From Ehretia macrophylla (lineage: Eukaryota; Streptophyta; Magnoliopsida; Boraginales; Ehretiaceae): a DNA stretch of 64,000 bases. Below, in pieces: positions 29,483-60,224 of the stretch (within the stretch, counting starts at the first letter, position 1; every line of letters starts with the position of its first letter). The stretch is taken from contig CM075783.1 in assembly GCA_037974665.1 (NCBI GenBank), positions 20,120,762-20,184,761 of the forward strand, given 5' to 3'. Made by a program: the position numbers and the translations under genes. The notes under the pieces were generated by a model that saw nothing but the letters and a program-made list of their open reading frames with translations, had not been told where the DNA came from and did not search any database.

Positions 29483-29582
29483 ATATATATATAAATGTGT
29501 AGAAAGCGAGACTTCATCTCGTATCCTCTCACAAACACTTCAAGTGTTTAGATCAACGGTCTTTAATCAAGGCCATTTGAGG

Positions 29583-29591
29583 CATAGAAAG
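29583..29591 (+). promoter_or_regulatory. TATA-like box of membrane-family copy A
   Basis: CATAGAAAG followed by AAGCCC, in the same context as CATAAAAAG at 39203 and TATAAAAAG at 49462. It lies about 90 bp before the start codon. Confidence 0.45.
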
Positions 29592-29672
29592 AAGCCCTTT
29601 TTCTTCATAAAAAAACACCTTTAAAACCTCTGGCATCGACTTCTAGCTAGCTTTTACTTTGACATTGATATC

Positions 29673-30245
29673 ATGGAATTTTCATCGCTTTGGTACGTCT
29701 CGTTTTGGTCCATCATCTCCCAAGTATCTCGACTAATCTTTTTTTTGGCTTCAAAGAAGGTAGCCAGTACCCCACTTCTCCTAGACAGGGTTCTTGTTAT
29801 TGAGTTGCTTTTACCTTTTCATGCAGTAGGGACATGGGCTACAGAATTCGCTCGCTATTCCTTCGCCTGCATTTCTTCTCAACTACAACTACGAAAAGTT
29901 TTTGAAAACTCATTTCCCTATACTTTTTTCCCTCTCTCTACAAAATTTTCTCTCTCTTCTCTCTCTCTCTCTCTCTTTAGGGCACCATTACCATCATCAA
30001 GAGCGTCATCTCCACAGCCACTACCACAACTATCGGCACTACCAACACTACCAAAGGTACTATCAATACCACCAAACACACCACTACTACCACTATAAGT
30101 ACCACCACTACCATAGAGGGCACTACTAACACCACTAAAAGCACAACCATTAGCACTACCACCACTACTACCAACACTACCATGAGCATTACTACCACTT
30201 TTTATCTCTCTATTTTTTTCTATAGTTTACACATATATGTATATA

Positions 30246-30321
<76 letters not shown>

Positions 30322-31564
30322 TATAAATTTTAGATTTTTTATTTGTTCAATTCTTAATTTTTATATTTAATTTTATGTTTTATGATTAGTTCATATTTTT
30401 TTCATAATTTTATTTGGTGAAATAATAGAGTCATGTGCTAATTTATAAGTGTAATAATGGAGTAATGTGCTAATTTAGAATTGAAATAATAGAATCATGT
30501 CCTAATTTAGATTTGAAATAATGGAGCCATGTGCCAATTTATATTCTTTAAGTATGTACCATGTTTATAGGTCAATATGTATATGTTAATGTTGAGAATG
30601 TATATGTTAATGCCGATGTATTAATACAAAATACTATTTAGTTGGTAGTGTTTTTTCATCATTTTATGCCTTATTTCTACAACCTATGATGGAGCCTGAC
30701 CTAACTGCCAATCCAGATTTTTTACCAACACTTTGTTTGGTCCTTGTAAAGCTTTCTATGGTAATGATCATATTAGGAATTCACTTCTTCTGGTATGATG
30801 TTTTCCAGGGCTTTTCTACTCCGAATGATGACCCACGCGCATGGCTTACAATTCCATGGATACTCTATTTCTATTACTCATTCTTTATACGCTTTATAAA
30901 ATGCATAGAGATAGGAGATTTATTGACTGGATTTGTAGGTCCTTTCATCATGTACCCATTTCATTCTCTTTGTTTTGCTTTATCTACAGTTTCTCTTTTC
31001 TCAAGTGTATACTTGGGTTCTTGTCAAGGTCTATATGATGCTATGGAAAGTTGTCTAATTCAAATACCTTTTGTTACTCGCTTTACGTTTATATTTTTCC
31101 TAAGCGCAGTGTACATTAGCCATTTTACTTCAAGAATGACGACCGAGTCAAATATAGATGAAAACTCTAATGGAAAGATGTTAATAATTCAAATCCCTCT
31201 AGCCTTGTTGGGTGGTCTTCTAGCTCACTACTCCATCCAAGAAAAGTCCGTTTCTCTTCTGCTGATGCTCTCCTCCGGTGCCAGTTATTGGCTAGCTAAC
31301 CTCGCCATGATACAACCTGCTACTGACTTGGGAATTTTCAGCTTTTCTATTGGTGCTATTTTGGATTGTGCACTTAGTCTCTATGGGCTCGGCAAATTCA
31401 CCTGGATTGCCTTTGTTTATTGTGTTGTCCTTGGACTCGTACGATGGAAGTTGAAGTCTGTGACACTACGTTATCCTCCGGACCGAACAACTATTATGAG
31501 GAATTGGCTAAGTCTAGACAACAAGATAAGCTTGAGGAGGGATAGGAGGATAGCGATATTTTAA
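29673..31564 (+). pseudogene. Membrane-family copy A, interrupted by an ~816-bp insertion
   Basis: The N-terminal part (29673-29829) reads MEFSSLWYVSFWSIISQVSR and corresponds to residues 1-51 of the intact copy at 39296. After inserted DNA (about 29830-30645) the homology resumes at FSSFYALFLQPMMEPDL. It then runs without interruption to 31564 (292 residues from the internal Met at 30686), including IPWILYFYYSFFIRFIKCIE, LLTGFVGPF, GGLLAHYSIQEKSVSLLLML and LAMIQPATDLGIF. The C-terminal half is nearly identical in pattern to the intact copy, so the break is young or the 3' part is still under constraint. The insertion is bounded by GTAG at both edges. Removing it as a GT-AG intron would not restore the frame as I read it. 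The family's function is unknown. Confidence 0.7.
29830..30645 (+). repeat. Insertion in copy A made largely of simple repeats
   Basis: It contains a (CT)n run (about 29950-29980), an imperfect ACC/ACT trinucleotide array (about 29981-30195), a (TA)n run (about 30245-30325) and a four-unit minisatellite of about 38 bp (about 30418-30545, ATAATGGAGTCATGTGCTAA type). The flanking motif GTAG may be a 4-bp target duplication. No transposon ends were recognised. Confidence 0.6.
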
Positions 31565-31599
31565 TTGAATCCCTAATTGTGCGTTATATGTGGCTAAGT

Positions 31600-31826
31600 G
31601 AAATCTAGAAAAGAAGGCAGCAAAGGAGGAAGAAAGCAAAGACATGAGAAGAATAGCAAAAGATATGTTGCTAGATTTTGTGGTAGACTTATTGACTGGA
31701 TTTGTACGAAGGCCCTTTCTTCTTGTACCCCTTTCATTCTCTTTATTATTATTATTTTTTGCTAATTTTTCATTCTCTTTATTTTGCTTAAACTACAATT
31801 TCTCTTTTCTTATTTGGACAAATTAG
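31600..31826 (+). pseudogene. Short membrane-family fragment downstream of copy A
   Basis: GTAGACTTATTGACTGGATTTGTA encodes the family motif LLTGFV, followed by RRPFLLVPLSFSL in place of the usual GPF.VYPFHSLCF. It matches the core around residues 139-158 of the intact copy and has a counterpart at 40560-40655 downstream of copy C. It is a partial duplication rather than an exon. Confidence 0.6.
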
Positions 31827-32082
31827 ACAAATAGTCCCTATTGTTTACAAGTTTAGGACAAATAGTCCCTATTGCTTTAGAAATCACACGGTTAGTCCCC
31901 ATTGTTTGTAAAAGTCCTACCAATAGTCCCCATTGTTTCAAAAATCACTCAGTTAGTCTTTATTGTTTGCAAAAGTCTCTCAATTAGTCCCCAATATTTG
32001 CAAACAATGAGGATTAATTGCGTGACTTTTAAAACAATGAGGACTATTTGTCAAAAATTTGTAAACAATAGGGACTATTTGT
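31827..32082. mobile_element. Foldback/MITE-like element with GTCCCTATTGTTT units
   Basis: The left end ACAAATAGTCCCTATTGTTT is the inverted match of the right end AAACAATAGGGACTATTTGT. Between them the same ~35-bp unit is repeated about five times in one direction and then about three times inverted. The ends and non-coding inversion fit a foldback element or MULE-derived MITE. No clear target duplication was determined. Confidence 0.6.
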
Positions 32083-32940
32083 GAGATTTTCCCTTTCTTA
32101 TTTATATACTTAGCTTATGCATGCTCAAATTTTTTCAACTTAGAGAGTGAAGGATCAAACTGTAATAGCTAAAATCGTCCTTAGCCCAAGCCCAATTAAT
32201 CTAGTAAGAAATTAGATTTGGATTGTGTTAGCTAGGTTTATGCGCAAGTCATCTTAATCATTATTAGTGATCCATTTAAAAAATAAATAAATCTCAGGCA
32301 TCCCGAAATTTTAATAACAGATATTCAAGGGTGTTTAAAGTGAAAAAAGCTAACTAAAGAAAACATACATAGCACTTTTATGAAGTTTCAATTTGGCTAG
32401 GAGGCCAGCCATGGTAGGGTGGTGAGGTAATAGTGGTGGAGGGGGTGAAGAGAGAGGATAGAGCATCTCAACCCATCAAGACCTTATATTATTGTAATTA
32501 ACTGTTCACGTCAACATAATGTGTTCCGGTGATAATTTAATTTCTTCAATTTTGCACTAAAATCTACAAAATTGCACCATCTAATGGTCAATAAGATTAA
32601 ATTTTGCTTGATACTTGTGGAGTGTGTTTTGTGGCGATAGAAAGGCGTGGGAAGAATACTTTTAATGTTGATGAAAGATACAGTATGCATTATGTTTGTC
32701 TTGCATCATTTTGTACTTATAAATACATATATTTTATGATTTTCAAAGTGCGTGAGTATAATTGAATGCAATATGTGATATACATCTACATGTATATTTA
32801 TACCTATACATATAATATCATGTATATTAGTTTTTTTTTTTATCGTTATGTATATATATAATATTTTGAGTATTTGTGCTTGTACTGCACCCCTTTCTAG
32901 GATGCCCTATATAATATTTTAATACTTTGTGCTTTGTTTA
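32083..32940. other. Intergenic DNA
   Basis: AT-rich; no gene supported. Several short T-rich and ATAT tracts are present (about 32700-32880). Confidence 0.45.
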
Positions 32941-33360
32941 AAGTAGGTGTTTGAAACATGGCCATGACATTAGGACTTGTCCAACAAAATGTGCTCAGCT
33001 TAAGAGATATCTTAAATATCTATAGATTATAGTTTTCCAACCAACTCAAATCTATTAAAAGCAGACCAGGTTTGATATGTTCAATTTTATTTACATACTT
33101 TTTCGAGCACTTTACATTTTACTATTTTTAATTTTGATTTGAGGTTTCAAATTGGATCAAGAAAGTGAAAGTTGCACCTTGCAAGTGGCAGGGCCATGCA
33201 AGTGTTGGTGTTGGATCTCTTTTCGGAGTAACCTCGAGTAATCAGAAGAGAAGTGGAGCATCTTCTAATGACAATATATTGGATTATTTTTTTGTCGAAT
33301 TAGTTTTTGTCCTTTTGGCTTCAATTTGTTTGGATCAGTTTATGTAATTTGGGAATATTG
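32941..33360 (+). pseudogene. Possible MULE-transposase 3' remnant with zinc-knuckle trace
   Basis: One frame reads CLKHGHDIRTCPTKCAQLK at about 32948-33003, resembling the CCHC zinc knuckle (C..CG..GH....C) at the C-terminus of plant MuDR-type transposases and FAR1-like proteins, with the first cysteine pair lost. After a stop, 33165-33347 gives an unassigned Ser/Gly-rich stretch ending in a hydrophobic segment. The assignment rests on one motif and is weak. Confidence 0.3.
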
Positions 33361-33590
33361 TTCTTGTCTTCAAGTTGCTTGGATTAGTTTATGTAATGTA
33401 GGAACAATATATTTGTTCAGGTTAATGCTTGGATCTGATTAGACTTCGAATGTAGGAACTGATGGATATGAATTCTAAGACATCCCAGGCATACTTTCTA
33501 TGTTTACAAGCAGTACATAAACATAATATGGCAGCCATTAAAATTCATAAGCGGAAAACACGTAATCATGCATAAAACATCGCCAACTTA
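33361..33590. other. Intergenic DNA
   Basis: No gene supported. Confidence 0.4.
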
Positions 33591-34047
33591 AATAGAGGCT
33601 AAACAGTCAACTACTCAATATCACTTGGTGAAAACTCTGCGGCTCACCAACTTAAATAGACGCTAAACGGCAATTAGTAGGAAGGTTATTAGTCAATAGC
33701 TTTATTGAGTCTTTTAATGTCATTTCTTGTGGTCAATTTTCTAACATTCTCACTCACCTCCATATTTTGCTCTCATTGTCCTGATCATGGAATTTTCGTC
33801 TCTTTGGTACTTGTCCATATGTTCCATTATCAGTCAGGTATTTTTACTAATTGCACTCCTTGCTTTAGCAAGTGTCGACACCCCAATATTTCTTGAAGCC
33901 ATTGGGGATAATTTGAAGATGCTTATATGTGCCCATGCAACCTTTTCGTATGTTTATGCCTTCTTTATCCTACCTATGAAGGAGCCTGATCTAACCAACG
34001 GAAATGTTTTATATGAACTCCAATGCTTCTTGCATTCATTGATATAG
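33591..34047 (+). pseudogene. Membrane-family copy B, N-terminal remnant with upstream DNA
   Basis: 33787-34047 encodes MEFSSLWYLSICSIISQVFL and continues through TM2 (YVYAFFILPMKEPDL), then stops after CFLHSLI, matching about residues 1-80 of the family. The rest of the protein is missing. Upstream DNA includes CCAACTTAAATAGA(G/C)GCTAAAC twice (about 33588 and 33651) and GGCAATTAGTAGGAAGGTTATTAGTCAATAGC, which recurs at about 46873-46910 ahead of copy D. Related to the other copies by tandem duplication. Confidence 0.7.
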
Positions 34048-35365
34048 GAAAATCAAGTGATAAATAAACAAAGATATTGAAAGATAACCTCAACAAAAAT
34101 ACCTAAACAAGTTCCGGACGCCAGTATAGACGACCAGAATGTATAAGCAAGAAATGTTGACTTGAACAACATATAAAAAAAATATATATATTCAACAGGA
34201 AAAGTGATTCAGAGTAGAACAAGCACAAATTAGAAAGAAATTAACTCTTTTGAAGCAGAGAAAGTCTCAAAAGTTGTTGTAAACACAAGTGGTTCAATCA
34301 ATTACGAGTTTTGTGTCCCATTTTTTTACTAAAGTGGGCTTATTTTGTTAGCTACTTTGAAATATTTTGGACTTTTAAAACAAAACAAAAAAAAATTGAC
34401 CCGAATCACGAACGATTCAGTGAATCGTACGATTCACTAACAATTCACATAATTCGGTACCGATTCACTTGCGATTCACGATTCTCCTATCCGATTTGTA
34501 TCATTTTTTTAGTGAATTGTATCGAATCGTACGATTCTGATTACACTGCTTCTCACCACCAAGGGATATAGCTTCACTAGGACCATGCGGGTGATTAATG
34601 GGGAAGATGCTTGTTGCCTAGGAATTAAACAGAGCTTCTATTAGAAGAATCTCAAAGAGCAGGAAAAGTTAAGCAGAAGGTCTTTACTTACAATAGAAAA
34701 ACAGAAGATGTAGTTTTGTGCACTTGCCTTTTTAGCAAAGGTGGTAAATTGCATCATATATTCTCTCTAGAAAAGTAAGGGTTGGTATTCAAAATGTCCG
34801 GTCCCACCTATATTTATTACTTTCTCTAACATCGAGCTTACCTATCTCGACACATGTCAGTTTAGAATTGAGACATTTAAAAAGTCAAAAAGTACTGGAC
34901 TTTTTAAAGAATTTTTGGAAAAGTAATTGTATTTCAAGCACCGGGTGATAGATGTTCCAACCTAGCAACCCATATCCGGTAAAACAGTTATACAAAAGGT
35001 TTACTTCAGGAAGACTTAACTAGCAAAAATTGTTAACCACTAAACAAAAGACCAACTGCCCATAATCATCAGCAAACCTGTTTTGGTCTATTTGAGAGAA
35101 ACTGGATAGAATCTGGACTTCCAGTGATTTTCACAAAGAGCCACGTGAGGAGAGGTGGTATCATGAAGGACAAATTTATTGTTTCTCACTGCAGTATGCT
35201 TATGATTTCTTCTTTTCCATGCAATGTGCTTCTTTTACGAATTCATTCACTATACAAGAGATTTCACAGCTTACCCAACTATATGATACTCACCGACTTC
35301 ATCCACCAAATATCATCAAGACTATGTGAAAACAGTAGACTAGTTGTGAAGAATAATTGAAATTT
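34048..35365. other. Intergenic DNA between copies B and B2
   Basis: No coding feature supported. It contains the CGATTCAC-rich patch at 34402-34540 and otherwise unremarkable AT-rich sequence. Confidence 0.45.
34402..34540. repeat. Cluster of CGATTCAC/GTGAATCG motifs with perfect palindromes
   Basis: The heptamer GATTCAC, its reverse and near variants occur about ten times in 140 bp. 34419-34438 is a perfect 20-bp palindrome centred on CGTACG, and 34524-34537 is a 14-bp palindrome with the same core. The origin is unknown: it may be the end of an unclassified transposon or a decayed repeat. Confidence 0.6.
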
Positions 35366-36075
35366 CACAATGTTCGACTACAGATTTTCATCTCGCATAA
35401 CTAAAAGAATTGAAAAAACCGTGTTTTATGTCCAGGCCATTTAGGGGTAGAGCTGTCCCTTTTCGGTTACTCCAACTTTCTACGCTATAGAAAAAGTAAA
35501 GGGATGAGGAACTTATTGACCGGATTCGTAGGCCCTTTACTTGTGTACCCCTCTCATACTCTTTGTTTTGCTTTTTTTTTTTTTTTTTTTGATTAAGAGG
35601 GAGGCCTAAAGTCATACGTAGGTACAGATGTAGCCAGCGAGACTCGAGCTCACAAATACTACGAATATCATATCATTAAACCAAAGAGTATATTTGGCTT
35701 TGTTTTGCTTTATTATAGCTTCTTTCTTCTCACTCAGATACTTGCTTTTTGTTCAAGTTCTACGTGAAGATGTGGGAAGTGTTCTAATGGCTGAATTTTA
35801 TTTTATTGTCCTTCTGAAGGTATTTTTTATAAGTTCAATGTGCTTTAGTAAATTTATTTCACGAATTGGGTCATATATAGGTGGAAACACAAATGGAAAT
35901 ATAAAAGTAATTGAAATCCCTCTTGGGTTGTTGGGTACTGCTCTAGCTCAGTACTACATCCAAGAAAAATCCGTTTCTCTTCTCGTGCTGCTCTCCTCCT
36001 TTGCCGTTTATTGGCTAGCTAATCTAGCCATGACCTAACCTCGTACGGACTTGGGAATTTTCAACTTCATTATTG
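35366..36075 (+). pseudogene. Membrane-family copy B2, C-terminal remnant joined to promoter-like DNA
   Basis: 35385-35450 resembles the promoter region of copy C (CCGTGTTTTATGTCCAGGCCATTTAGG against CCGTGTTTGATGTCGAGGCTATTGAGG), but the N-terminal coding part is gone. Coding homology starts at about 35505 with LLTGFVGPLLVYPSHTLCF, is split by a SINE, and resumes through EIPLGLLGTALAQYYIQEKS and SSFAVYWLANLAMT. After this a TGACCTAA context introduces a stop, and homology ends at about 36075 (TDLGIFNFIIGAIV). The pieces cannot make the family protein. Confidence 0.7.
35572..35697 (-). mobile_element. tRNA-derived SINE, full length, with 11-bp target duplication
   Basis: It is flanked by CTTTGTTTTGC at 35561-35571 and 35698-35708. 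Poly-T at 35572-35590 is the reverse of a 3' poly-A tail. Read on the minus strand, the body carries a B-box-like GAGCTCGAGTCTC and a weak A-box-like TGGTTTAATGA at tRNA-like spacing. Total length is about 126 bp. The perfect duplication points to a recent insertion into pseudogene B2. Confidence 0.85.
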
Positions 36076-36620
36076 GTGCTATTGTTGAAAAGAGTATAAA
36101 CTCTACTCTAACAACTTAAACTTTTAGAATAGTTGATAATTTAACATGGTGTTGGATTTAAAAATCACCGCTACCCATTAGAACAACACAACTCAATTGC
36201 TCCCTCTAATCATATATTGAAGAGTGCAAGAATATTTTATCAAGCCATGATGGCTACAAACTCAACATGTATATACCGGCAAGTCAACAAATGTAACGAT
36301 TTGTTAGCTAATTTTGACTTAAACCAACAACTCAGAAGTCAGTCTAAAGCATTCCCGACTCCTCTATATGTGTTGAATATAATAAATAATATAATAATTT
36401 TTTCTTTAACAGTTTAAGTTTTTAGATGAGATGGTAACTTAATATTACCCATTTAAAAATATTTAAACTGTCCAATTAGTGCAAAGTTAAAAAAAATTAA
36501 CTCTGCCTGCACATGCGGGACGTGTTGAATATAATAAATAATATAATAAATCTCTCTCTAACAAGTTAAACTTTTAGAGGAAGTGGTAACTTAGTAACAA
36601 AATCTTTTAGAACAAGATAA
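36076..36620 (+). repeat. Unclassified repeat with three related AACTTTTAGA blocks
   Basis: Blocks resembling CTCTAACAAGTTAAACTTTTAGA occur at about 36100, 36400 and 36565. Two follow TTGAATATAATAAATAATATAATAA. The texture is that of decayed LTR sequence, but no paired ends or coding parts were found. Confidence 0.4.
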
Positions 36621-39000
36621 AGGGGTGTAATGTTCAGTAAATCAACTTTGCCTCCATATACCCGCAAACAAAAAAATGAAGAAAAAAGACCTAAGTTTCT
36701 TCATAGAAATCTTTTTTGTATTTCAACTTTTCTTAGTTTTTTATTTTTATTTTTGGCCCCTTCTACCTAAGCATGTTTCTGATATTGGGAAGTGCCATTT
36801 CAAGGAAGCTGAAATCGCCATCCAATTTGAATTCTAATGTCGTCCCGCTTAAGCATAACGAAGAGGAAATAGAACAAGAAGGGAAAGAAAGATGAAGATA
36901 AGTAAGAGACTAGCTTGTTTACGTTAGTGGATGGCGAGGTTGGTCAAACCTTAATCAATTCCCTATTTAATACATACTCAACTGTCTTGTATATATAGAG
37001 GTAAATAATTGGTAGGGTGAATAGCACGTGGTCCGCCATAAATGCATACGGCTCTTTTGTGATTGCAAAATCTCCTCCACACTCTCCTGTGGTCTATCAA
37101 TCAATGTATACACCCCTCCAACCCATGTTTCTGTCAAAGTTAATAACGGAATATGATAAAAGACTACTATACCCTTATTTTTAATTAGAAAAGAAAGAAA
37201 GCAACACACATTCTCTCTATATATATGTATACATATCACACAAACATATATAGATCGCATAGGATCCTTAATTGACAGATTCCGTATCTACACACACCTA
37301 TTTCTATGTCAGAATAGACTGTAATCACTGATTACAATATCCAATCTTTGATTAGGACTAACTGAATTGCACTAGCAAATTACAGGATCCCTAACACAAG
37401 ATAATTGTGGTGTCTCAGATCTAAGGACTAATTGCACAATTACACTGTATAACGAATTATTGACTAATCTAAGTAATTTGTTGTACTAGCAGTCATGTCC
37501 AGTCACTTATTCTCAACAAACACATATACATTCACTCTTACGATATGAGACTAATCGCTCAAATCAATATATCATATTATTTGGTTAGTAGACTGTATTC
37601 TAATCTTTTCGGATAAACTAACGTCCAATTAATTTATCCTACAATCGAGGATAATTTTAGAATATATTTATGAATATACACTTAAGGATAGAATCTATAA
37701 ATATTATTCTAAGCACTTTTATTTAAATAATTAATCACATTAAATGATAATTTAAATAAATTGTCCACATTGAATGTAAAATTAATTGACTTTTAGGGCA
37801 TATAATCCAACAGTAAGAACCAACTTATTTTCCGTTAATGGGCTTTGAGTTGATGGACAGGGGAATTGAAAAAATGAATAGTAACTAAAAATCTCTTGGT
37901 CCCTCTTTTCATTCAACACAAATGTACAAATTTCTTGTTACTATTATTTGACAAATATAAAAGTACATATTAAAAAGAGTGCAAATTGTAGAACATCATT
38001 TTCAAGTCGATCCATATGTAAAAGGCACTTCCGAAATACATAGTATACTTGTACAATTTTGGATTGGTAAGAATACCTTATATGAGGCTTCTAACTTTTT
38101 CATTGATGTATACATGGTAATTTTAGGTCGTCAACGAAAATTTCCCAAAAAAAAAAAAGGTCATCAACGAGAACAATTAAGTCAAGAGAATTCTATAAGA
38201 ATATAAAGCTTTTTTAACGTTATTCCAGTGTCTTCGTAGAAATTCAACTTCTATTGATTATTATTACTTTAGGCTAACCTTTTGAAAATTTGTCTACTAA
38301 CCCCCACTGATATGTGATATCTAGTTCACTTTTGCCTTGTAAACATGTTTGACCATTGGGCTTGGACGCAATGATCAAATGTCCATTAAAATCTGCAACC
38401 TGTGGAAAATTCTATAGTTACCAGCTATGACCAACTTGAAGTTTTTTCTAATGGGAAAATTGTGCAAGCAGCTCTCTTATTTTTTTAAAATTTAAATTTA
38501 TTTTTACTATTTAGACTCAGTCAATTGAATTCATAATATTTTTAAAAAAATTTGAATTTAATCCCAACTGTACAGGATTTAGTTAAATTAAAACGAAAAC
38601 TTAGTTACTTGCAACTACTGTTTGGGCGACAAAATTAGAAATTATTAAATGTTCAATGGGAAACTATTAAATGTTTGTTAAACATTTTTTCAACATGAGA
38701 TACACTCATCTACCGAAGCAAAAGACGATAATTATTATTATTTTTTTGGTCAATAAAGAAGACGATAATTAAACTAGGAAAAATTTTGTTGTGTACAAAA
38801 CTTGGAGGTCTTACATAACTGCAATGCGTTTAGCAAAAAGCGCTCACTTAAAAATGAAAAAAAATAAAATAAAAAGAACTGGTATGTCTATCAACATACC
38901 TTCTCATACCCCGTTCTCTCTCTTTTTACCATAACTTGTAGACATTAGCTTTATCAAGTATTGTACTGCCATTTAATTTTTTATGGTAATTTCTTTTTTT
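36621..39000. other. Intergenic DNA, about 2.4 kb without a supported gene
   Basis: AT-rich with scattered short open frames and none of recognisable family. CTAATTGCA/CAATTACA motifs recur around 37360-37450. The only ordered feature is the approach to the promoter region of copy C. Confidence 0.5.
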
Positions 39001-39202
39001 TGGGATTGTTCTGCAATGAATAAAGGAGTTTAGAATTACACTTTTTACTGATTATCACGTCAACAAACCGTATGTATGATCATGTCAGCAAACCGTCTTT
39101 CTAGTAATCTTAATTTCTAAAAAATTAACAACAAATTTGTCATCCCGCATAAAAAAACAAAAAAAAATTGCAAAACCGTGTTTGATGTCGAGGCTATTGA
39201 GG

Positions 39203-39211
39203 CATAAAAAG
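39203..39211 (+). promoter_or_regulatory. TATA-like box of the intact membrane gene
   Basis: CATAAAAAG followed by AAGCCCTTCTTCAT. The same block precedes copy A (29583) and copy D (49462, TATAAAAAG). It lies 85-90 bp before the start codon, and the conservation extends about 50 bp upstream (ACCGTGTTTGATGTCGAGG). Confidence 0.55.
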
Positions 39212-39295
39212 AAGCCCTTCTTCATAACCAACATACTATCCCTCTGACATCGATTTCTAGCTTTTAACTTACAGTATTCACCTTCCATTTTTAAT

Positions 39296-40315: not shown

Positions 40316-40559
40316 ATCTCTTGTACGTTATATGCGGCCAAGTTAAATCTGGTAAAGAAGTTGCAGGAAAGGAGGAAGAAAGCAAAACACAAGCTTATTG
40401 AGAGGATCTGATGTAGCAAAAGATACGAGCTAGGAAAACTTTTCAAAAAATTTGGCGGACTGTCAGTCTCTCTAATATATTGAGTGGATCCTACACATGT
40501 AGAATTCACTTTATGTAAGTATTGTTTTGACCCGTCAAACTTTTTGAAATTTTTTTTAA
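40316..40559. other. Probable 3' untranslated region of copy C
   Basis: GTTATATGCGGCCAAGT followed by AGGAAGAAAGCAAA is shared with the DNA downstream of copy A (about 31580-31640), supporting common descent of the 3' flanks. No clear polyadenylation signal was fixed. Confidence 0.4.
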
Positions 40560-40655
40560 AATATTAAGCTAGCTTTTATGGTAGACTTATTGACTGGATT
40601 TGTAGGCCCTTTCCCGTGCACCCCTTTCATTCTCTTTGCTTTGCTTAAAGTCATC
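40560..40655 (+). pseudogene. Short membrane-family fragment downstream of copy C
   Basis: Encodes VDLLTGFVGPFPVHPFHSLC with frame disturbance, matching about residues 137-158 of the intact copy. It mirrors the fragment at 31600-31826, so the fragment predates the duplication that made A and C. Confidence 0.6.
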
Positions 40656-40854
40656 AAAATGTATATATATATATATATATCATTATTATTCCTTTTCATG
40701 TTTCAGTCATCCAAAAATTAGGTGCAACTTTTTACGATGCATAAGCACACTACTACTTGGACAACTTTTTCCCGTGATTGTTTGACGAGAAGAGATTAAT
40801 AATAGTATATTTTTAAACTTCGAGTAACTAAAACATAAAAATAAAATAAAAAAG

Positions 40855-42600: not shown

Positions 42601-42830
42601 TCTTCCTTGGTTTTAAGGTCATATCTTAGTCATCTCTTTCGCATCTCTTTCGCTTTTTCCGAATTCATCATTAAACACGCCAAAAGTATCAATTCTTTGT
42701 TTGGTAGGTTTATAGTGGCCTGAGAGCTGTGGTTGATTCCAATTAAATATCAAATGCATCTGTTTTGGATGTAAATTGATAAGCATTGTTATGTTTCTTT
42801 TGTCTCAAAGATAGAACACATTGGAAAATA
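42601..42830. other. Intergenic DNA
   Basis: The motif (G)GAT(A/G)TA.ATTGAT(A/G)A.CATTGTTATGTT at about 42760 recurs at about 60700, showing that the duplicated neighbourhood extends beyond repeat R. Confidence 0.4.
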
Positions 42831-43830: not shown

Positions 43831-43869
43831 TTGCAAATAATATCAAGGAAATATATGTGGCTTGGCTTG

Positions 43870-46039: not shown

Positions 46040-46139
46040 TTTTTTTTTTGCCTTTTTTATTTTTACCAGTTTGTTGGCATTGACTTATAAATTTTGCTAA
46101 TGTGTTTAATTTCAGATGTTGAGGACTAAAAGAAGCAAT

Positions 46140-48150: not shown

Positions 48151-48190
48151 ATAAAAATCCATGTTTCTAGAAAGTCTTAATGTAACAACA

Positions 48191-49369: not shown

Positions 49370-49461
49370 TAACAATTTTTTTTTAATCTTGCATAACTAC
49401 AACTGTGTCAAAATTAATAAAAAAATATGCAAACCGTGTTTGATTTCAAGGTCATTTGAGC

Positions 49462-49470
49462 TATAAAAAG
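49462..49470 (+). promoter_or_regulatory. TATA box of membrane-family copy D
   Basis: TATAAAAAG followed by AAGCCCTTCTTCATAA, matching the block at 39203 upstream of copy C. It lies about 115 bp before the conserved start at 49585. Confidence 0.6.
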
Positions 49471-49584
49471 AAGCCCTTCTTCATAAATCAAGACTATCCC
49501 ATTTACATCAATTTCTAGCTTTTAGTAACAGTTATCACCCTCTAATTTCCTCAAATTTCTTCCATCTTGGCCAGCGTTGTCCTC

Positions 49585-50030
49585 ATGGAGTTTTCTTCGC
49601 TTTGGTACCTCTCCATTTGTTCCATCATCAGTCAGGTATCTTTAAAAATTGCCCTCGTTGCTTCAAATAAGGTCAATCTCCCAGTTCCCAATTTCATTTG
49701 GGAAATTTTTTGTTCAAGTCTATTTCTACTTGCATGCTTTCCATATTTTTATGCCTTCTTTTCACGACCCATGATAGTGCGTGATCTGGATATTGGGGAT
49801 AGCTCAAAAGAACTCTTCAACTTCAGTAAATTTCTTCTCTTCGTAATTGCTGGTTTCATAATATCCTTCCTGCGGTTCAGTTTCCCTATTCAAAATATTT
49901 ATTTCACATTATGGGCACAGTGGTTGTCTTCTTTGTCCTTCCTGGCCACTTTTTAAAAATTGCCGAGCTGGGTGTTAGAAATATCAATTTTTCAACGCGG
50001 GGAAGAAACTACTTGATTGGATTTGCAGGC
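49585..50030 (+). pseudogene. Membrane-family copy D, N-terminal part, cut by an Athila insertion
   Basis: The conserved start MEFSSLWYLSICSIISQVSL is at 49585; an in-frame upstream Met at 49567 is not conserved. Homology runs through TM2 (FPYFYAFFSRPM) and a TM3-TM4 region that is more diverged (FSKFLLFVIAGFIISFLRF). A stop at about 49954 ends the frame. A shifted frame then gives a trace of the core motif (LIGFAG, matching LTGFVG) up to the insertion point at 50030. The C-terminal part continues at 58645. Confidence 0.75.
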
Positions 50031-51228
50031 TGATGAATAAAGATCGTTTCCATGAGGACTGTGATTACTACCGAAATTAATTTAGCTTTAACTTTATTTG
50101 GACAATCAAATATGAGAGATTTTGAGTAAAAACTAATAAATAAAGTACTTTTGGAATTAATAACTAAAGCGAATACGAAATTAATAAAGAAGATAAATCA
50201 ATGATTAAAATGCTCTAGGGGTTCCGACTTTACCAAGATTAATCCTATTTGAAACTATTGATCTAAATCAATTGAAACATATTCCTTACGTTGCCAACAA
50301 TTTCGCTAAGGTAGATATTAATATTTCTCAACCATCAATAACCTATCCCAATAAGCAAGCTAAGTACATCTCTGTGATAACTGTGAACTCATGGAACGTT
50401 TTAAGCCCTAGAAATTCAAATGCTGCACTAGATCTCATAACTATCTCTAGCATATGACGATTTAATGGTATTTTATACGTGGTCTAATTTAGTTATCACT
50501 TCTCAGTCTCAAACCAAATCACGAATCATGTAATTGTTGATCAGGCAACCACAAGCATTAAACTTAGCATAAAATACTCAACGCAAATATGGAATAGTTC
50601 ATCAATTAATTCAAAACCAAAAATATCAAATATTCATAATCTGGCTACATCGTAGCCCTAGAAAAATAACTTAGAACATCATAATGAAATTAAATAAAAT
50701 CTCAATTGTAATGTAAAACATGATAAGAAAGATAGAGAAAACTAGGATTTGGAGAAGAATTGGCGCAGAAGTCCGTCTCCGGATCGTTCCTCCGACTTCA
50801 ACTCGCGAATCCTCTCTTTCTCTCCCTCTGAAACATTCTTTTTCTTCTCCTCTGAAACGTTGTTTTTTTCTGCCCACTTGATGGCTGCCTCCCAAAAGCT
50901 CCCCTCAAACGTTTATTTCCTTATCTTTAAACATAGGGTTTCTTCTTTTTGCGCATTTTTACAAAATTACCCTTAAAAATCCTGCGATACTGCGCAGCTG
51001 CGCTATGACTGCGCTACTTTAATTTTCAGCAATTTATCCACAAGTTGCATAAAAGCTTGCCCTTGTTCATTTTTCTTCAATCTTTGCCTCAAAATCCATA
51101 TCTTCTCATAAAATTCACCTACATCGCAAAACAAATATGGAAACAATCAAATTGCTCATAAATTACTCAAGAACTAACAAAATTTAAGTAAAAAGACGCT
51201 GAATAATATATCAATAATACACCCAACA
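50031..51228 (-). repeat. 3' LTR of the Athila element
   Basis: Pairs with 57393-58644. The two LTRs share the end ACACCCAACA on the plus strand but differ in overall length. Confidence 0.88.
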
Positions 51229-53989
51229 AATACCCCCAAACTTAAGCTTTGCTTGTCCCCAAGCAAAAGACACAACTAAAGAAAGAAACAAGGTAAAACT
51301 CCAGACTTGACACACAACCCCACATGAAAGAAATGTTGTAGGATAGTAAATTTTTACGGCCTCAGTAGCTTTATCCCAACTCAAGAGGTAACTTTCAATC
51401 ACAAGCATGAGAAATAATAACTTCACATAAGTTGCATTTTACTTCAAATCCCCCATATAAGTGTATGAATAGCCTCTATCCTAATCAATTATACCCGGAT
51501 GAGTTTATGCAAGCAAAGCGAGTTTTCAATGTGAATCTGTTATTTTCAATCACTTAGGACTTCATAGGCTTACTTTTCATGTCACTCTCCACTAATGTAG
51601 GTTAATCATAGCATTAAAAATCAGTAGGACTTTACATTTGGTTGTAACGTGTGGCTAGGGCCAAGGTAGGATAATGGATATAATACAAGGCTAAACTACC
51701 TATAACCACACAATTATTTGAGGATGTTCAATGGAGCACATGCCAACTCTACTTCTTACCACCAAAACTATTCAACTTATCTCTTATCTTCCATCTTTCA
51801 TTTCACTTCCTCAACAATCATTCACAACATTTAAAAACACATAAAGAGTCCACATTCCCCCAAACTTGCATTTTGATATTAATTACAAGGAGTGTGACTC
51901 TTCTCTTTTCTTTTCATTCTTCTTTTTTTTTTCTTTTGTTTTTCTCAATATTTCATTCATTTTTCTTTTTTTAAACAAAACAACACATCACCAAATTATC
52001 AAACCTCCCATCATTCAATGCAAAACATGGCTCCATATAATCATCCTAGAACAATCATATGTTACAAGTAGGAAGGTCATTAATTGGGATAATTAATTTG
52101 ACAAGCTAAGGAAGAATTTGTAGGTTGCACATGAAAGAAATGGCTAAGTAGGCTCAAATTGGTGGACTAAGGATATTCAATTATTACAAGGGTTGGCTTG
52201 AAAGGCTCAAACGATCCAAAGATGGCCTAAATCATTTCTCTAATGCTATGTAACCTAAGATTTCGCCTCGAATGACAATCAAGCAAGTTCTAAAGTCCTA
52301 TGATCATTTTTCTGTTAACTTAAACCACATAAACCTTCTCTAAGTAACAACATAATTAGGCAAGGCTAAGTGCGCAGTAGGTGGGGAATTTTCATAAACA
52401 AACTATGCTTTAGTCAATTGTCCTCATTACTTTCATGTCATATATACGCTACTCATCATCGGCCTATTTCTTATCTCTCCAGGATCACTTTCAAATTTTT
52501 TCAGTTTTTTCAATTTTTTTTAAAGTAACTAAAACACATAACATAATAAAAACAACACTTAACACAAAACTCAGTAAGACAGGTTCACAAAATAAGTAAA
52601 GAGGCACCACCCCCAAACTTTAAAGGAAAACATTGTCCTCAATGTTAAAATACAAAAGGAAAGAAATCAGAGGACTTCCCTGAATAATCGCACCAATTAT
52701 CAGCCAGTCACCAGAGGTACCACAGTCTTGAATGTGCAAAAAAGGAACAACAATGTTGTCTACTTTGCTGAGAGCTCGAACATACAGGTAACATCCAATC
52801 CAAATCCACAAACTGTTCTGCTCAACAAACAAAACTCACCACCACTACAAGTCAGTCAACAGAAAAAGTGTGCACTCACAACCATATGATATCCACTTCA
52901 AGCACGAGCCACCTAACAGACTCAAGAAAGGTGCTCAATGATCACAACCAGTCCCAATATCAGCTAACACCAAAACACAATTACATCCACTATAGCCCAA
53001 CCAACAACAAAGCAGTCACAAACTATCCAACCAATATGTCAATGTGCACTAAAAATAGTTTTTAAAGCCACAAGAGGTCGAACTGTACTTCAACCAAGTA
53101 ATCCATGTGCAGCACAAATCAACAATTCACAATAGCGGGTCACAAAGAGAACAGTTCATAAAGCACTAAATTTCAATTTGTCTATCTAGTTTGGTGAGAA
53201 TGCGTATAGCCAGTTATCATGTAATTCAAAGTCACAACAACCAATAGTAGTCAACAAGATTCTCAATAAACTCCATCCAACAATCAACAATGGAATCTCA
53301 ACCTCTTGTACGACACCAACTTCAAACCAACCTACAGTTTCTTTCTTTTGTTCTCTTTTTTGTTTGTATTTTTTTTTTGTTTTTCCAGTGTGAATCCAAC
53401 TAGCCCAACAAGAACCAGCACCCACCAAAACATTACTGGTCCCAGACGCCGCATGTTCTTCTCGCGTTTTGCAATTGAGGCACTCTTTTTTTTTTCTTTT
53501 GAACAGCGAACAGAGTACACACAAAATAAAAATTGAAAAATACTCACCCAGGCAAGAATTCTCGCTATCACTGTATGATAGATGTCGTCAACGCTGACGC
53601 CATGAATCGTAAGGGCGGTGATAATGGTCTTTCGTCAGGGAGAGATGGAGAGAGAGACCGACGCCAAGATCCGTGCCGTCGTCGTGGTGTTGAGAGGGAT
53701 GTGAAGGAGGACTGAAGCAAGAGAGCCGACAGAAAGAGATTCGTGTGGCGTTGGGCGCTGAGATCGGATATGGCGATGATAAGTGATGCGCCAGAGACGT
53801 GAGGGAGCTGTGTGATTTTTTTTTTCTTGTGGAACTAATAAGAAGGTAGAGAGTTTGTAGAGAGTTGGGTTTGTGTAAGTGGGTAAGGGTTTTGGAGCTT
53901 TTAGTATTTGGGTGGGTTGGATCTTAAGTATGTGAGTGGTGTAAGTGATGTTTAGATGGTGTGGGTAGCGGGTTAGATAGATGAGATTA

Positions 53990-54260
53990 TGGATTTGTGG
54001 GTCTGAAATTGTGGCTGCTTGAAATAATTTTTTTTCGAACGTCAGATGTAAAACGCCAGCGCAACTGTGCTATTTTTTAGCGTAGCAGCGCTACTGTTTT
54101 TGTGAACAGCTCTTTGAAAATGTAACTCTTAATACCGTCAGCGCAGTTGTGCTAGAATTTAGCGCAACAGCGCTACTGTTTTTTTTTCTTCAAACACCAA
54201 AGAGATGGATGCCAACGTAGCTGCGCTATTTTTTAGCGCAACCGCACTACTTCACAACTT
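53990..54260. repeat. Tandem GCGCAGC/GCTGCGCTA repeats in the Athila 3' region
   Basis: Three units of about 80-110 bp share CAGCGCA.CTGTGCTA and TTTAGCGCAACAGCGCTAC. The same palindromic core (GCGCAGCTGCGCTA) also occurs in both LTRs (about 50994 and 58409). Confidence 0.6.
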
Positions 54261-54549
54261 TATTTCTTCTTTTTTTTCTCTTCCATGCTCGCATCCCCTT
54301 CACTGCAAACATGAATTTCTTCATATTTTCTCCCTTAAATGACTTGGTAGAACCTCTCCTTCGCCTTGGCTTCCCCAAACTTATTCTTGAACCAATCATA
54401 ATAATAAAAATCAACAATTAACCTCGACAACTATAACTCAAAAATTAACTAAAAACAACTAACTATTAAATCAAGAAAAAAATAAGAAACTTCGGGTTGC
54501 CTCGCGAAAAGCGCTTATTTTAACGTCGACGGCCCGACGGAGCAATTTT

Positions 54550-55695
54550 TCAAGCAGAGTTGAGGTGGACAACAGACTTGTGCTTATCAAACTCATCATC
54601 CCAATAAACTTTTAACCGTTGTTCGTTGACCTTGAACATCCATTTCTCTGAATGGGTGACTTTCACAGCACCATAAGGTAACACCTTAGTCACAACAAAG
54701 GGGTCAGACCATCTTGACTTGTGTTTTTCAGGAATCCGTGGGTTATAAAGAAGTATTTGTTGCCCAGGAGATAAATCTTTTTCCGAAACGGATTTGTCAT
54801 GCCACTCGTTTGTCATCTCTTTGTAACTTCTTGAATTCTTATCTTCTTCATCACCTAATTCTTCCAACTCATTCAATTGCAACAATTCTTTCTCACCCAT
54901 TGCTTGTACACTCATGTTTAGTTGTTTAGTCGCCCAATATTCTTTGTGCTCCAATCCCACCAAAGAATTATCTTGTAACAAGCTCGCCTCCAAGGGATCC
55001 AATTGACCCCCATGGTTATACCCTATAACTTTTATGGCATCAATGCGAAAACAACTATCACTCGCTTCTGGGTACTTGTAAGCTTTGAACATATTAAAGG
55101 TTACCTCATCGTCTTGTACTCGCAACCTAAGCTCACCCTTTCGAACATCAATAAGTGCTCCTCCAGTTATAATGAAAGGTCTTCCAAGAATGATAGGAAT
55201 TTCCTTATATTCCTCCATATCAAGCACTATGAAATCTACAGGAAAAATGAATTTATCAATTTTGACGAGTACATCTTCAATTACTCCTCTGGGATGCTTT
55301 AGCGAACAATCAGCTAACTGTAGTGTAACAGTCGTAGATCTTGCCTCTCTAAAACCAAGCTTCATGAAAATAGACAAAGGCATCAAATTAATATTAGCAC
55401 CTAAATCACATAACGCTCGCTCAAAAATAACATTGCCAATTTCATAATGAATAGTAAAATTCCCCGGATCCTTGAGCTTTTGTGGTAGTTTCTTCTGTAG
55501 GATAGCACTGCACTCCTCAGTAAGTGCAATTGTCTCGTAATCTCCAAGCCTCCTCTTATTTGAAAGAATGTCTTTCATGAACTTCACATAACTAGGCATT
55601 TGTTCAAGTGCATTCGCGAATGGAATATTGATGTGAAGTTTCTTGAAGACTTCAAGAAATTTAGCAAATTGCTTATCAAGCTTATTTTTCTGCAA
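54550..55695 (-). mobile_element. Athila protease and integrase-tail-like region
   Basis: Contains the retroviral-type aspartic protease pattern around CDLGANINLMPLSIF and IPIILGRPFIITGGALIDV. Further on is LLYNPRIPEKHKSRWSDPF with GAVKV and VNEQRLKVYW, a pattern found at the C-terminal end of gypsy integrases. Fossil part of the Athila element. Confidence 0.8.
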
Positions 55696-55698
55696 TCG

Positions 55699-57323
55699 TT
55701 AAGAGAATGGCACAACTACATACGGCTCCTTCATAGGTTGTGGCTGAGCTTCTACTTTCTCTTTATCTTCTGCCTCATTCTTTGCTTCACTTTTTTCAAC
55801 CTTCTTAGCTCTCACTGGCTCCTCTAACTCTTTGCCGCTTCTCAAAGTGATCGCTTTATAATGCTCTATGCCATCTCTTCTGGGATTTACCTCTGAAGTG
55901 CTAGGTAAATTCCCTTGTTGTCTTTCTGAAAACATGGTAGCCATTTGGCTAAACTGTGCCTCTAAATTTCTGATTTGTGCAGATTGGTTATGGAGACTTA
56001 TCCTAGTTTCATTCATAAATTGAGTCTGGGAATTAGCCAACTGTGTTTGCGAATTCGCCAATTGAGCAATTACCTCATCCAAGTTCACCTTCTTCTCTGG
56101 TGGTGGGTTATTCTGCTTAGGCTGCAACACATTCTGAGTATTCTTCTAGGAAAAATTCGGATGATTACGCCATGCTGGATTATATCTGTTAGAGTACTGA
56201 TTGTGCTGTTGCCCATTAAAATTCCCTACATATTGTGCTTGTTCTGCTATGCCTTGCGCAATGGATTTCGAACCTGACATTCTACACTATGATGTGGACC
56301 ACAACAAAACTCGCACACCACTGCCGCTTGGACAGCATTAGTAGTCATTTGATTATTTTGCAACTGTTTCGCGAGATTGTCAATTTTCACTGTCAAGGCA
56401 GTTGTGACATCAATCTCATGAATCCCAGCTGTCTTCTTTGGTGCGACTCTCTCACTTGACCACTGCTGGTGGTTCAAAACAATATCCTCTAGCAACGCAT
56501 AAGCTTCATCTGCTGTCTTGTTCATTAAAGCTCCTCCTGCAGATGCATCTATCAAAGTTCTTGTGGAACTAATTAACCCATTGTAAAAATTATGAACTTG
56601 CATCCACCTGGGTACACTATGATTAGGACACTTCCTCAGCAATGCCTTATACCTTTCCCACGCTTCACATAGAGTTTCTCCTTCATGTTGCGCAAAATTA
56701 TTAATCTTTATGCGCAGCTTCGCTGTCTTTCCTGGTGGAAAAAATCTTGACAAAAACTTGTGCACCAAATCTTTCCAAGTAATGATTGAATCTGAAGGCA
56801 GCGAGTTCAACCATTCCTTAGCTTGATCCCTTAAAGAGAAAGGAAACAAGCGAAGGCGCAGAGCTTCATCAGTGACTCCATTATACTTAACTGTTCCACA
56901 AACTTCAAAAAAATTCACTATGTGCTGATTAGGATCTTCAGTGGGCAGTCCATGAAATGGGATATTCTGAATCAACTGTAGCGTCACTATCTTCAAGTCA
57001 AAATTATTCGCCTGAATCGCTGGCCTTCTAATCACAGGTTGAATTCCAGTGGGTGGCAAAGCATACTCTCGCAATGTTCTAGGCGGATTTTCCTGATTAT
57101 TTCCTTCTTGTGCTACCACGATGTCAGCCATATTTCCTTGCAAATGATAGGTAGTTGTAGTAGCTCTTTTCTCCTTTTTGTTCTTCCGACAGGTTCGTTC
57201 TATCTCAGGATCGAAAGACAACAAATTGCTATCTCCCAGCTTTCGCATACACCTAAAGGAATATGTTCCTGAAACACACGTAACGAAAATAAGAGAACAA
57301 AAACAAAATAAAATAAAATCCAA
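55699..57323 (-). mobile_element. Athila gag region
   Basis: Retrotrans_gag pattern: FHGLPTEDPNQHIVNFFEVC, RLRLFPFSLRDQAKEWLNSL, KFLSRFFPPGKTAKLR and GETLCEAWERYKALLRKCP. A zinc-knuckle-like CEFCCGPHHSVEC and a Gln/Asn-rich segment follow. Fossil part of the element. Confidence 0.88.
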
Positions 57324-57392
57324 AGTAAAATCAAAGCTATTTGGTATCGATATTAATAATTAACACAGTCCTCGGCAACGGCGCCAAAAACT

Positions 57393-58644
57393 TGTTGTGT
57401 GAATTCTAACGCAAGTGCACATATCGTAACAAGTAATAAAATGATGAATAAAGATCGTTCCCACGAGGACTGTGATTACTAACTACCGAAATTAATTTAG
57501 CTTTAACTTTATTTGGACAATGAAATATGAGAGATTTTGAGTAAAAACTAATAAATAAAGTACTTTTGGAATTAACAACTAAAGCGAATACGAAATTAAT
57601 GAAGAAGATAAATCAAGGATTAAAATGCTCTAGGGGTTCCGACTTCACCAAGATTAATCATATTTGAAACTATTGATCTAAATCAATTGAAACCTATTCC
57701 TTACGTTGCCAGTAATTTCGCTAAGGTAGATATTAATCTTTCTCAAGCATCAATAACCTATCCCAATAAGCAAGCTAACTACATCTCTGTGATAACTGTG
57801 AACTCATGAAACGCTTTAAGCCCTAGAAATTCAAATGCTGTACTAGATCTCATAACTATCTCTAGCTTATGACGATTTAATGGTATTTTATACGTGGTCT
57901 AATTTAGTTATCACTTCTCAGTCTTAAACCAAATCACGAATCATGTAATTGTTGATCAGGTAACCATAAGCATTAAACTCAGCATAAAATACTCAACGCA
58001 AATATGGAATAGTTCATCAATTAATTCAAAACCAAAAATATCAAATATTCATAATTGGGCTACATCGTAGCCCTAGAAAAATACCTTAGAACATCATAAT
58101 GAAATTAAATAAAATCTCAATTGTAACGTAAAACATGATAAGAAAGATAGAGAAAATTAAGATTTGGAGAAGAATTGGGGTAGAAGTCCATCTCCAGATC
58201 GTTCCTCTATCTTCAACTCGCGAATCCTCTCTTTCTCTCCCTCTGAAATGTTGTTTTTCTTCTCCTCTGAAACGTTGTTTTTTTCTGCCCACTTGATGGC
58301 TGCCTCCAAAAAGCTCTTCTTAAACATTTATTTCCTTCTCTTTTAACATAGGGTTTCTTCTTTTCGCACATTTTTACAAAATTACACTTAAAAATCTTGC
58401 GATGCTGCGCAGCTGCACTATGACTGCGCTACTTTAATTTTCAGCAATTTATCCACAAGTTGCATAAAAGCTTGCCCTTGTTCATTTTTCTTCAATCTTT
58501 GTCTCAAAATCCATGTCTTCCCATAAAATTCACCTACATCGCAAAACAAACATGCAAACAATCAAATTGCTCATAAATTACTCAAGAACTAACAAAATTT
58601 AAATAAAAAGGCGCTGAAATAATATATCAATAATACACCCAACA
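57393..58644 (-). repeat. 5' LTR of the Athila element
   Basis: Begins TGTTGTGTGAATTC on the plus strand, next to the primer-binding site at 57369-57386, and ends CCAACA directly before the target duplication. Confidence 0.9.
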
Positions 58645-59678
58645 CAGGCCCTTTTCTAGTGTTCCCCTCTCACACTCTTTGTTGTGCTTTATTTACAGCT
58701 TCTCTTTTCTTAGTTGTATACTCCACTTCTTATCAAGGTCGGTATGAAGCTATGATGATTCTAGTTGCTGTTAGTTTCTGTTTGAACATTGGAACAGAAT
58801 TTGTCCGATGGAATTCGCGTCTTCGTCGTAATCTATCACGAATCGGGTCATGTATACTTAGGATCCCGAGAGGTTACATAAAATTGATTGAAATATTTCG
58901 TGGATGGTTATTTTACATTCTAGTTCAGTACTTCATCCAGGAAAAGTCGGGTTCTCTTTTGGTGATGCTCTCATCCTTGGCCGTTTTCTGACTGTCTAAC
59001 CTCGCCATGATCCAACCGCCAACTGACTTGGGAATATTCAGTTTTATTGTTGGTGGTGTCCTGGATTGTGCAATAAGTTTGTTTAGGCTCCACATGTTCT
59101 CCTGGATTACTTGGGCTGGTTGTGGCTTCCTCGGCTTCCTGTGGTGGAACTTAAATTCAGTGACACCGGGTTATCCTTGGGCACGAGCAGATGTAATACG
59201 CAAATGGCGACGTCAAGAACAGGAGGTAGCAAAGGGTGGTTTGTTTGAAACTTTCAGAGCTGAAAAGAAGGAAATGCGACTAGCTGGTATTATGAGTTTA
59301 TCATCTGAGCTCTTCTCATTAGCAGAGATGTTCAGTAAGATAAAAATATCTTTAAAGGAAGAAGAAATCAAAGACATGCTAATTGTTTATTTACGTCAAC
59401 AGCTTGTGCACAAAGAGGAAGGTATGGAAAAAAAGAGCATAGCTGAGATACTTTATTTATTATGTCTTCTCCTTTACGGACTGCTTAATATTGTAGAAGA
59501 AAAAGGGATGGCAGAAGAAATCAACAATTACCGAATTGCTTTATGTTCGTATATAGTCTTCACCCTGCTGCGGAACAGATCAACAAATACCAGAAGTATT
59601 TTTGTAGGAATTTTTGTAGATTTTTTTTGTGATGAGAAAACGTCACACGAATTATTAAATCTCGTCGTTTCATCTTAG
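58645..59678 (+). pseudogene. Membrane-family copy D, C-terminal part with a long cytosolic extension
   Basis: Homology resumes exactly after the Athila target duplication: GPFLVFPSHTLCCALFTASL, then EIFRGWLFYILVQYFIQEKS and LAMIQPPTDLGIFSFIVGG. A TGA at 58990-58992 replaces the Trp of YWLANLAM. Unlike copies A and C, which stop shortly after the last membrane segment, D stays open for about 170 more residues. This extension is hydrophilic and helical-looking (KWRRQEQEVAKGGLFETFRA, LSSELFSLAEMFSKIKIS, EEEIKDMLIVYLRQQL) with a further hydrophobic stretch (ILYLLCLLLYGLLNIV). D thus preserves a longer architecture, perhaps the ancestral one. It cannot be expressed as one protein. Confidence 0.7.
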
Positions 59679-60166
59679 GCCAGCTTTTAATAGAAATACA
59701 AAAAAGAAAGGAAGAAGAAAAAGGAGATGGACCGGAAAGGACCGGAGAAGGAAAAAGGAAAGCAAAGAGAAGGCAAATTAGAAAGGGGGGATTATTAGAC
59801 TTTGTCGTCTCAGATGATGGCTGCAGTTTTTGCCAAAGGAGGAGAAAACGAGAAAGAAGCGGAAAGGACAAGCTTGTTTCTGCCAAAAAAGGTGAAATTT
59901 CTCAATCTTCGTCTCCAGATTTAAGCCAGCAGCAGAAAAAAGGAAAAGGAAAGGAAGAAGAAAAGCTGGTAGGCGGGCAGGAAGAGGGAAAAATAGAAGA
60001 AAATGGAGGAGAAATAAAGAACATGAAAAATAAGAAACTGAAAGAAGAAGAGGTTGGGCTTGGCTTCATTTTTGCTGCTGCCGATACTTATAAGAGTCTA
60101 CGGTTTCCGATCGAGAGACATGGGCCAGAAGCGACGAGCAGTAGCGGTCGAAGCTCGGGAGAATGA
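59636..60166 (+). other. Open Lys/Glu-rich frame following copy D (176 codons without stop)
   Basis: In the frame next to that of copy D, no stop occurs from 59636 to the TGA at 60164-60166. The translation has no early Met and is rich in Lys, Glu, Gly and Ser: KKEEEKGDG, GLLDFVVSDDGCSFCQRRRK, KGKGKEEEKLVGGQEEGKIE and a less biased end, LGFIFAAADTYKSLRFPIER. The segment encoding LLDFVVS resembles the end of D (LLNLVVSS), suggesting an internal duplication. The region is homologous to 13940-14125 on the minus strand. It may be the rest of a longer C-terminal tail that has slipped out of frame, or a purine-rich 3' UTR. Confidence 0.4.
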
Positions 60167-60224
60167 TACTAGGAGAAAGGTAAATAAGTTTGTTCTTAAA
60201 CTTATTGAGAAAATAAGTTCTTAG

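Follow-up and report, generated by a model that had tools for sequence, protein, structure and literature searches.

Atypical membrane determinants that lack known domains exist among plant self-incompatibility systems (PMC13033167). Papaver PrpS and Ipomoea SE are multi-transmembrane (multi-TM) proteins without a known functional domain and map to one chromosomal locus (PMC13033167), traits shared by the protein family presented here. This family was found in a 64-kb stretch of the Ehretia macrophylla genome (C20:20120762-20184761, hereafter the window; the genome comprises 1.58 Gb in 20 contigs), which holds five of its loci, named A, B, B2, C and D. The family fills a megabase-sized cluster around the window, and it is very probably functional and under positive selection. 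Among known plant genes with a quarter of their codons in a class at a ratio of nonsynonymous to synonymous substitution rates (dN/dS) of 3, most encode receptors, sensors of the immune system or determinants of mating.

Family size and distribution

The window loci were mapped by tblastn, with 20 family members as queries. All five lie on the + strand, in agreement with the original prediction of related loci in a single orientation, and the E-values of the top piece per locus (A, 3e-121; B, 4e-26; B2, 4e-23; C, 0; D, 4e-147) exclude chance for each of them. The local cluster proposed there is therefore real with regard to these loci, but the count understates the family, for which the genome-wide total is 135 loci or more. 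This number results from merging 146 distinct matches, the union of two protein searches (124 and 116 matches), and is a lower bound, since the best candidates alone were scored and just A and C are listed from the window; a gene split by an insertion of more than 700 bp could be counted twice. At least 127 loci are found in C20:18.69-21.90 Mb, seven in C20:26.1-27.1 Mb and one on C4, with 112 of those on C20 in + and 22 in − orientation. Spacings between loci recur at approximately 96 kb (at 18.7-19.1 Mb), 60 kb, 147 kb and 1.245 Mb, and because of this recurrence they point to segmental duplication in the cluster. The birth-and-death character suggested earlier is thereby borne out: tandem and segmental duplications occur alongside broken copies, and the copies as a whole range from intact to fragmentary.

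A total of 78 distinct stretches was read (85 fetched, minus six duplicates and one without a copy), and the choice favoured open ones. In 46 of the 78, the frame of the membrane domain runs uninterrupted from its initial Met as far as position 315 of 321 or beyond, whereas substitutions alone would leave 0.3% of frames open at d = 0.25 (1000 trials). Many copies are open genes of a single exon. Membrane domain and tail are joined in one frame at 19 distinct loci (497-595 residues). The only copy found off C20 (L023, C4:21064666-21065718) is open, with 351 residues, and forms a long branch beside L022 and L038 within the C20 tree (support 83); its tree position and the lack of a recognisable core promoter suggest that it is perhaps a dispersed copy.

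The original prediction of an unrecognised multi-pass membrane family stands, since neither C nor the 20 members had a significant Pfam or PDB sequence match. For copy C, no Pfam family was obtained at E ≤ 5 and no PDB sequence at E ≤ 10 (phmmer). The 20 members gave eight weak Pfam families at E ≤ 1 (best E 0.045), each in one or two of the 20, and the family profile gave one non-significant PDB match (E 2.4). None of 126 pattern matches in prokaryote contigs and none of 42 in viral contigs was confirmed by tblastn, the seeds being two short patterns in each case, with which distant relatives can be missed. In the open-access literature no paper was recognised as describing the family, as far as titles and the openings of abstracts tell. 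Assignment to a known family through Pfam, PDB sequences and, with a model of poor quality, fold search ended without a significant match; the MsbA-type ABC transporters in the top rows of Foldseek (TM-score 0.19) were dismissed as noise.

Selection on the membrane domain

Selection was analysed with our own codon-model program on 26 sequences, thinned from 46 at 97% identity, over 320 codons. Compared with the nearly neutral model (M1a, log-likelihood (lnL) -13554.9), the fit improved strongly under M2a (lnL -13405.7; likelihood-ratio test (LRT) statistic 298), which placed 28% of sites at a dN/dS of 3.0, 43% at 1 and 29% at 0.30. Sites with P > 0.95 number 53 of 320, with seven in residues 29-50, 24 in 68-133 and 19 in 179-222 (hereafter the variable segments) and three elsewhere (residues 9, 265 and 306). 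The family therefore has a significant codon class with dN/dS above 1 relative to the nearly neutral model, and the controls behave differently. None of four neutral simulations on the family's tree was significant (LRT 1.1-3.1; single whole-gene ratio, M0, 1.03-1.09), nor was the test on 15 NB-ARC sequences (17 fetched) of the same genome, with mean identity 0.89 (M0 0.34, LRT 3.4).

The signal recurs in subsets and in parts of the gene. Clade X (11 sequences) has an M0 of 1.49, with twice the lnL difference from a ratio of 1 amounting to 12.2, and an LRT of 73; the LRT is 174 for 16 other sequences, disjoint from clade X, and 46 for a C-type subset (eight sequences, of which four recur in the set of 16). 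When each segment was given its own tree, the LRT was 64 for residues 1-67, 69 for 68-133 (M0 1.80), 3.0 and not significant for 134-178, 36 for 179-222 and 7.3 for 223-324 (M0 0.62, p 0.026). In ten clade X sequences, tree-free counts put the three variable segments at 3.7, 1.6 and 2.0 and the remainder of the gene at 0.80-0.93. Along the gene, in ten-codon windows, clade X and the remaining sequences agree in the variability of nonsynonymous differences (pN; Spearman 0.74, p 1.5e-6), and for synonymous differences (pS) the correlation is not significant (Spearman 0.24). With regard to purifying selection on C, raised in the original prediction, the picture differs between segments: four C-type sequences have a dN/dS of 0.38-0.47 in residues 134-178, 223-260 and 261-324, but 68-133 exceeds 1 (1.49). 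The tail (10 sequences) has an M0 of 0.81, an LRT of 22.7 and three sites.

Protein architecture

The long form of the protein has approximately 500-600 residues, of which about 320 make up a hydrophobic domain and roughly 170-270 a charged tail that looks helical by eye. Hydropathy delimits about ten hydrophobic stretches in the membrane domain, and a weak structure model of C contains twelve helices. Across the 20 members, 13 alignment columns are invariant. Positive charge is concentrated behind TM4, TM6 and the last helix, and because of this distribution both termini are predicted to be cytosolic in a protein of about ten transmembrane helices.

Loci in the window

Within the window, there are one intact gene (C), two interrupted ones (A and D) and two fragments (B and B2), so the claim that only C is intact holds there (Table 1). 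Copy A is interrupted past codon ~51 by some 0.8 kb of inserted DNA (approximately 29826-30640) that includes an AT microsatellite; an intron was considered, but the splice choices inspected break the frame. Copy B2 has a single internal stop. Copy C, with about ten predicted membrane helices and its variable segments at the residues given above, has a twin 147 kb upstream (95% identical; 96.8% over the surrounding 4 kb). The VAGKEEESK encoded behind its stop resembles AGKEEESKDELI of the long form L024, and the tail seems to have been lost by this copy.

Table 1. Features mapped in the window (position 1 is its first letter)
Feature	Position	Strand	Basis
Fragments of the tail of another copy (opposite strand)	13845..14124	-	tblastn, E 3e-5 and 5e-9
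Copy A, C-type gene, interrupted	29673..31564	+	tblastn pieces 29673-29825 and 30641-31546
Copy B, N-terminal fragment, 86 codons, long-form type	33787..34047	+	tblastn 33787-34044
Copy B2, two fragments (middle and C-terminal part)	35462..36089	+	tblastn 35462-35566 and 35706-36089
Core promoter of C, TATA-type, ATAAAAAG	39173..39227	+	alignment with D core
Copy C, intact single-exon gene, 339 residues	39296..40315	+	open reading frame, tblastn
Apparent C-terminal tail remnant (VAGKEEESK...) behind stop of C	40360..40398	+	sequence
Short repeated piece, LLTGFVGPF-coding segment, behind C	40579..40647	+	L001 2784-2852
Core promoter of D	49431..49495	+	alignment with C core
Copy D, 5' part	49585..50030	+	tblastn, two frames
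Long terminal repeat (LTR) retrotransposon within copy D	50031..58644	-	LTRs, gag domain, CAGGC flanks
Copy D, 3' part with pieces of the tail	58645..59872	+	tblastn 58644-59698

The 5' part of copy D corresponds to a long-form gene like L030 (92% identity across the first 101 residues), and a tail fragment belonging to the 3' part lies at 59753-59872 on the + strand (tblastn, E 3e-7). The retrotransposon between its two parts has LTRs of about 1.2 kb each (50031-51228 and 57442-58644) that are 94.8% identical, is flanked by CAGGC at both ends and encodes a gag domain (PF03732, Pfam E 5.8e-22). Inside this element, at 56614-56720 and opposite to the gag frame, there is an Rfam match to snoR71 (45.8 bits, cut-off 40).

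Away from the five loci, a stretch of about 2.5 kb is directly repeated at 351-7206, with 4.3 kb spacing and pieces 92-100% identical. The run of open reading frames at 21147-24191 resembles a CACTA-type transposase region, and those at 14287-15303 and 27375-28751 on the − strand resemble those of Copia-like retroelements.

Core promoter

Upstream of C and D there is a shared motif, AAACCGTGTTTGAT.TC.AGG.C..TTGAG..ATAAAAAGAAGCCCTTCTTCATAA, which in front of C occupies the stretch 69-123 bp from the ATG and in front of D begins 154 bp from it. The two TATA-type core promoters are identical in 49 of 56 aligned columns. The 65-bp core of D scored above all of 200 shuffles each in 12 of 14 upstream regions, a count that includes L030, a close relative of D, and the narrow passes L036 and L022; the two regions in which it was not matched above shuffles are those of L031 (a 26-27 Mb copy) and of the C4 copy. 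A pattern count found one sub-element in 13 of 16 regions, against 1.1 expected, and a second in 10 of 16, against 0.0 expected. The upstream regions of L007 and L022 share, before the ATG, a motif like GATTGCGAG..TCAA..TCGCTAGTTAC, which may represent a small mobile element that has landed in promoters.

Interpretation and alternatives

The constrained scaffold, the three fast segments, the open frames, the recognisable core promoter and the recent duplication led us to read the family as a working one engaged in an arms race. In full, this reading, to which we would assign an even chance, is that the family consists of functional integral membrane proteins, was amplified recently and recognises a biotic partner. 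The mechanism that we propose tentatively, as slightly less than evenly likely, is recognition through variable helices and loops coupled to a signalling tail. The conserved TM1, TM5 and TM7-10 would form the scaffold, while loop 1 with the start of TM2, TM3-TM4 and TM6 would provide a surface or pocket contacting a fast-changing partner. The cytosolic tail would relay a signal or assemble a complex, tail-less copies such as C may act as modified or dampening versions, and copies are renewed and broken by segmental duplication and retrotransposon insertion. As for the role, immunity or pest perception is placed somewhat ahead of mating by inference. A bolder proposal, which we consider rather unlikely as it stands, is that of a new kind of plant recognition, in which a megabase cluster encodes ten-helix receptors with the specificity in variable membrane helices and not in an extracellular domain, the charged cytosolic tail signals, and tail-less copies serve as decoys or brakes. 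A large family with such a selection signature and no match in the searched domain libraries suggests a recognition system overlooked by domain-based annotation, one that lends itself to direct testing now that its variable and constant segments are mapped and its core promoter and intact copies are known.

Several observations weigh against this main reading. The family-wide M0 of 1.09 does not exceed the range of the neutral simulations, for which reason the case for selection rests on the site classes and on clade X. In the 16 other sequences, tree-free values are 1.20, 0.90 and 1.24 in the variable segments versus 0.43-0.90 elsewhere, and pS is raised in the variable segments as well, so that alignment error or saturation blurs this set. 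Segment 134-178 has 13 sites with P > 0.95 (class at 1.36) despite its non-significant LRT, and in the four C-type sequences residues 29-50 (0.82) and 179-222 (0.87) are both below 1, while the supposedly conserved residues 1-28 give 1.17. Gene conversion can inflate site tests, which separate trees and pairwise counts lessen and do not remove, and the NB-ARC control is less diverged. The variable segments sit largely in hydrophobic stretches, where a soluble ligand would not usually be contacted. The structure that AlphaFold predicts for C, built on nine rows from the window (eight partial, some misaligned), is too poor to rely on, with a predicted local distance difference test (pLDDT) of 51 and a predicted template modelling score of 0.32, and with this query Foldseek found nothing in the PDB at E ≤ 0.001 (best E 0.12). 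Over 116-224 bp, the upstream identity of seven pairs (0.61-0.73) is close to that of fourfold sites (0.62-0.80); constraint, if real, would therefore be confined to the core. Finally, none of 124 scored NB-ARC matches (from 2370 candidates) is on C20, including C20:18.69-21.90 Mb.

The alternatives are taken in the order mating recognition, transport and selfish drive. In the first, the cluster would be a mating-type or gamete-compatibility locus with atypical receptors like Papaver PrpS, Ipomoea SE or grass SI-DUF247. Several self-incompatibility systems are described as using membrane determinants that lack known signalling domains and in some cases carry hypervariable stretches (PMC13033167), and a single chromosomal block with strong diversification fits. 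Yet such loci carry far fewer genes than the 127 or more copies of this block, none of the 50 Self-incomp_S1 (PF05938) and none of the 108 RNase T2 (PF00445) matches of the genome falls in C20:18.69-21.90 Mb, and the family differs in size and helix number from PrpS (about 20 kDa) and SE (four TM) (PMC13033167). Its size, its copy number and the lack of partner genes in the block argue against filing the family under self-incompatibility, and we regard a reproductive role as unlikely. Elsewhere in the genome, RNase T2 exons are densely arrayed in tandem at C2:13764584-14305078, where 56 of the 108 PF00445 matches lie, all except one in + orientation; this may be an S-RNase-like cluster.

Transport is less probable still: a helix bundle would move changing lipophilic compounds, possibly secondary metabolites, diversified against herbivores or microbes. 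The roughly ten helices are compatible with this, and the variable TM3, TM4 and TM6 could line a substrate pathway, but there is no significant similarity to a Pfam or PDB family, and a charged tail together with 28% of sites at a dN/dS of 3 goes beyond what would be expected of transporters. Selfish killer and antidote genes, like wtf of fission yeast, would explain the fast evolution, the many truncated or broken copies and the existence of long and short forms, with tailed and tail-less copies as poison and antidote, and wtf genes are described as a large and diverse killer family. In the present family, however, the long form and the short form are products of separate genes, and not of two starts within one gene as in the wtf mechanism; no sequence link to wtf was seen, and no search aimed at one was made. 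We regard this reading as very improbable. A decaying family of mostly neutrally drifting pseudogenes, as suggested by the numerous broken copies and a whole-gene dN/dS near 1 (pairwise, the median is 0.93 among the 734 pairs whose dS lies between 0.4 and 0.7; M0 is within the neutral range), is the least credible alternative and largely refuted already by the open frames, even with a choice that favoured them, by site classes at 0.30, 1 and 3 that are absent from the four simulations, by the 13 invariant columns and by the core promoter kept in 12 of 14.

Comparison with known systems

The arms-race reading can be set beside four described systems. PrpS and SE share with the family the features named at the outset and differ from its 339-595 residues and about ten helices; their loci comprise few genes, versus at least 127 copies in a cluster without an S1 match. 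The wtf genes of Schizosaccharomyces are likewise multi-TM and fast-evolving, with many pseudogenes and both long and short products, and unlike the family they are fungal, multi-exon and use alternative starts; they are not known to be linked to it in sequence. The plant DUF4220/DUF594 proteins resemble the family in a multi-pass N-terminal domain, a C-terminal soluble part and tandem clusters, although neither DUF4220 nor DUF594 is among the eight weak Pfam matches of the 20 members (E ≤ 1). The nucleotide-binding leucine-rich-repeat receptors (NLR, with NB-ARC) likewise form tandem clusters on single chromosomes and are abundant in the same genome. Those are soluble ATPase receptors, whereas in the present family the variation lies inside the membrane domain, and unlike it the NB-ARC control, with its low M0, has no significant class of codons in which dN exceeds dS.

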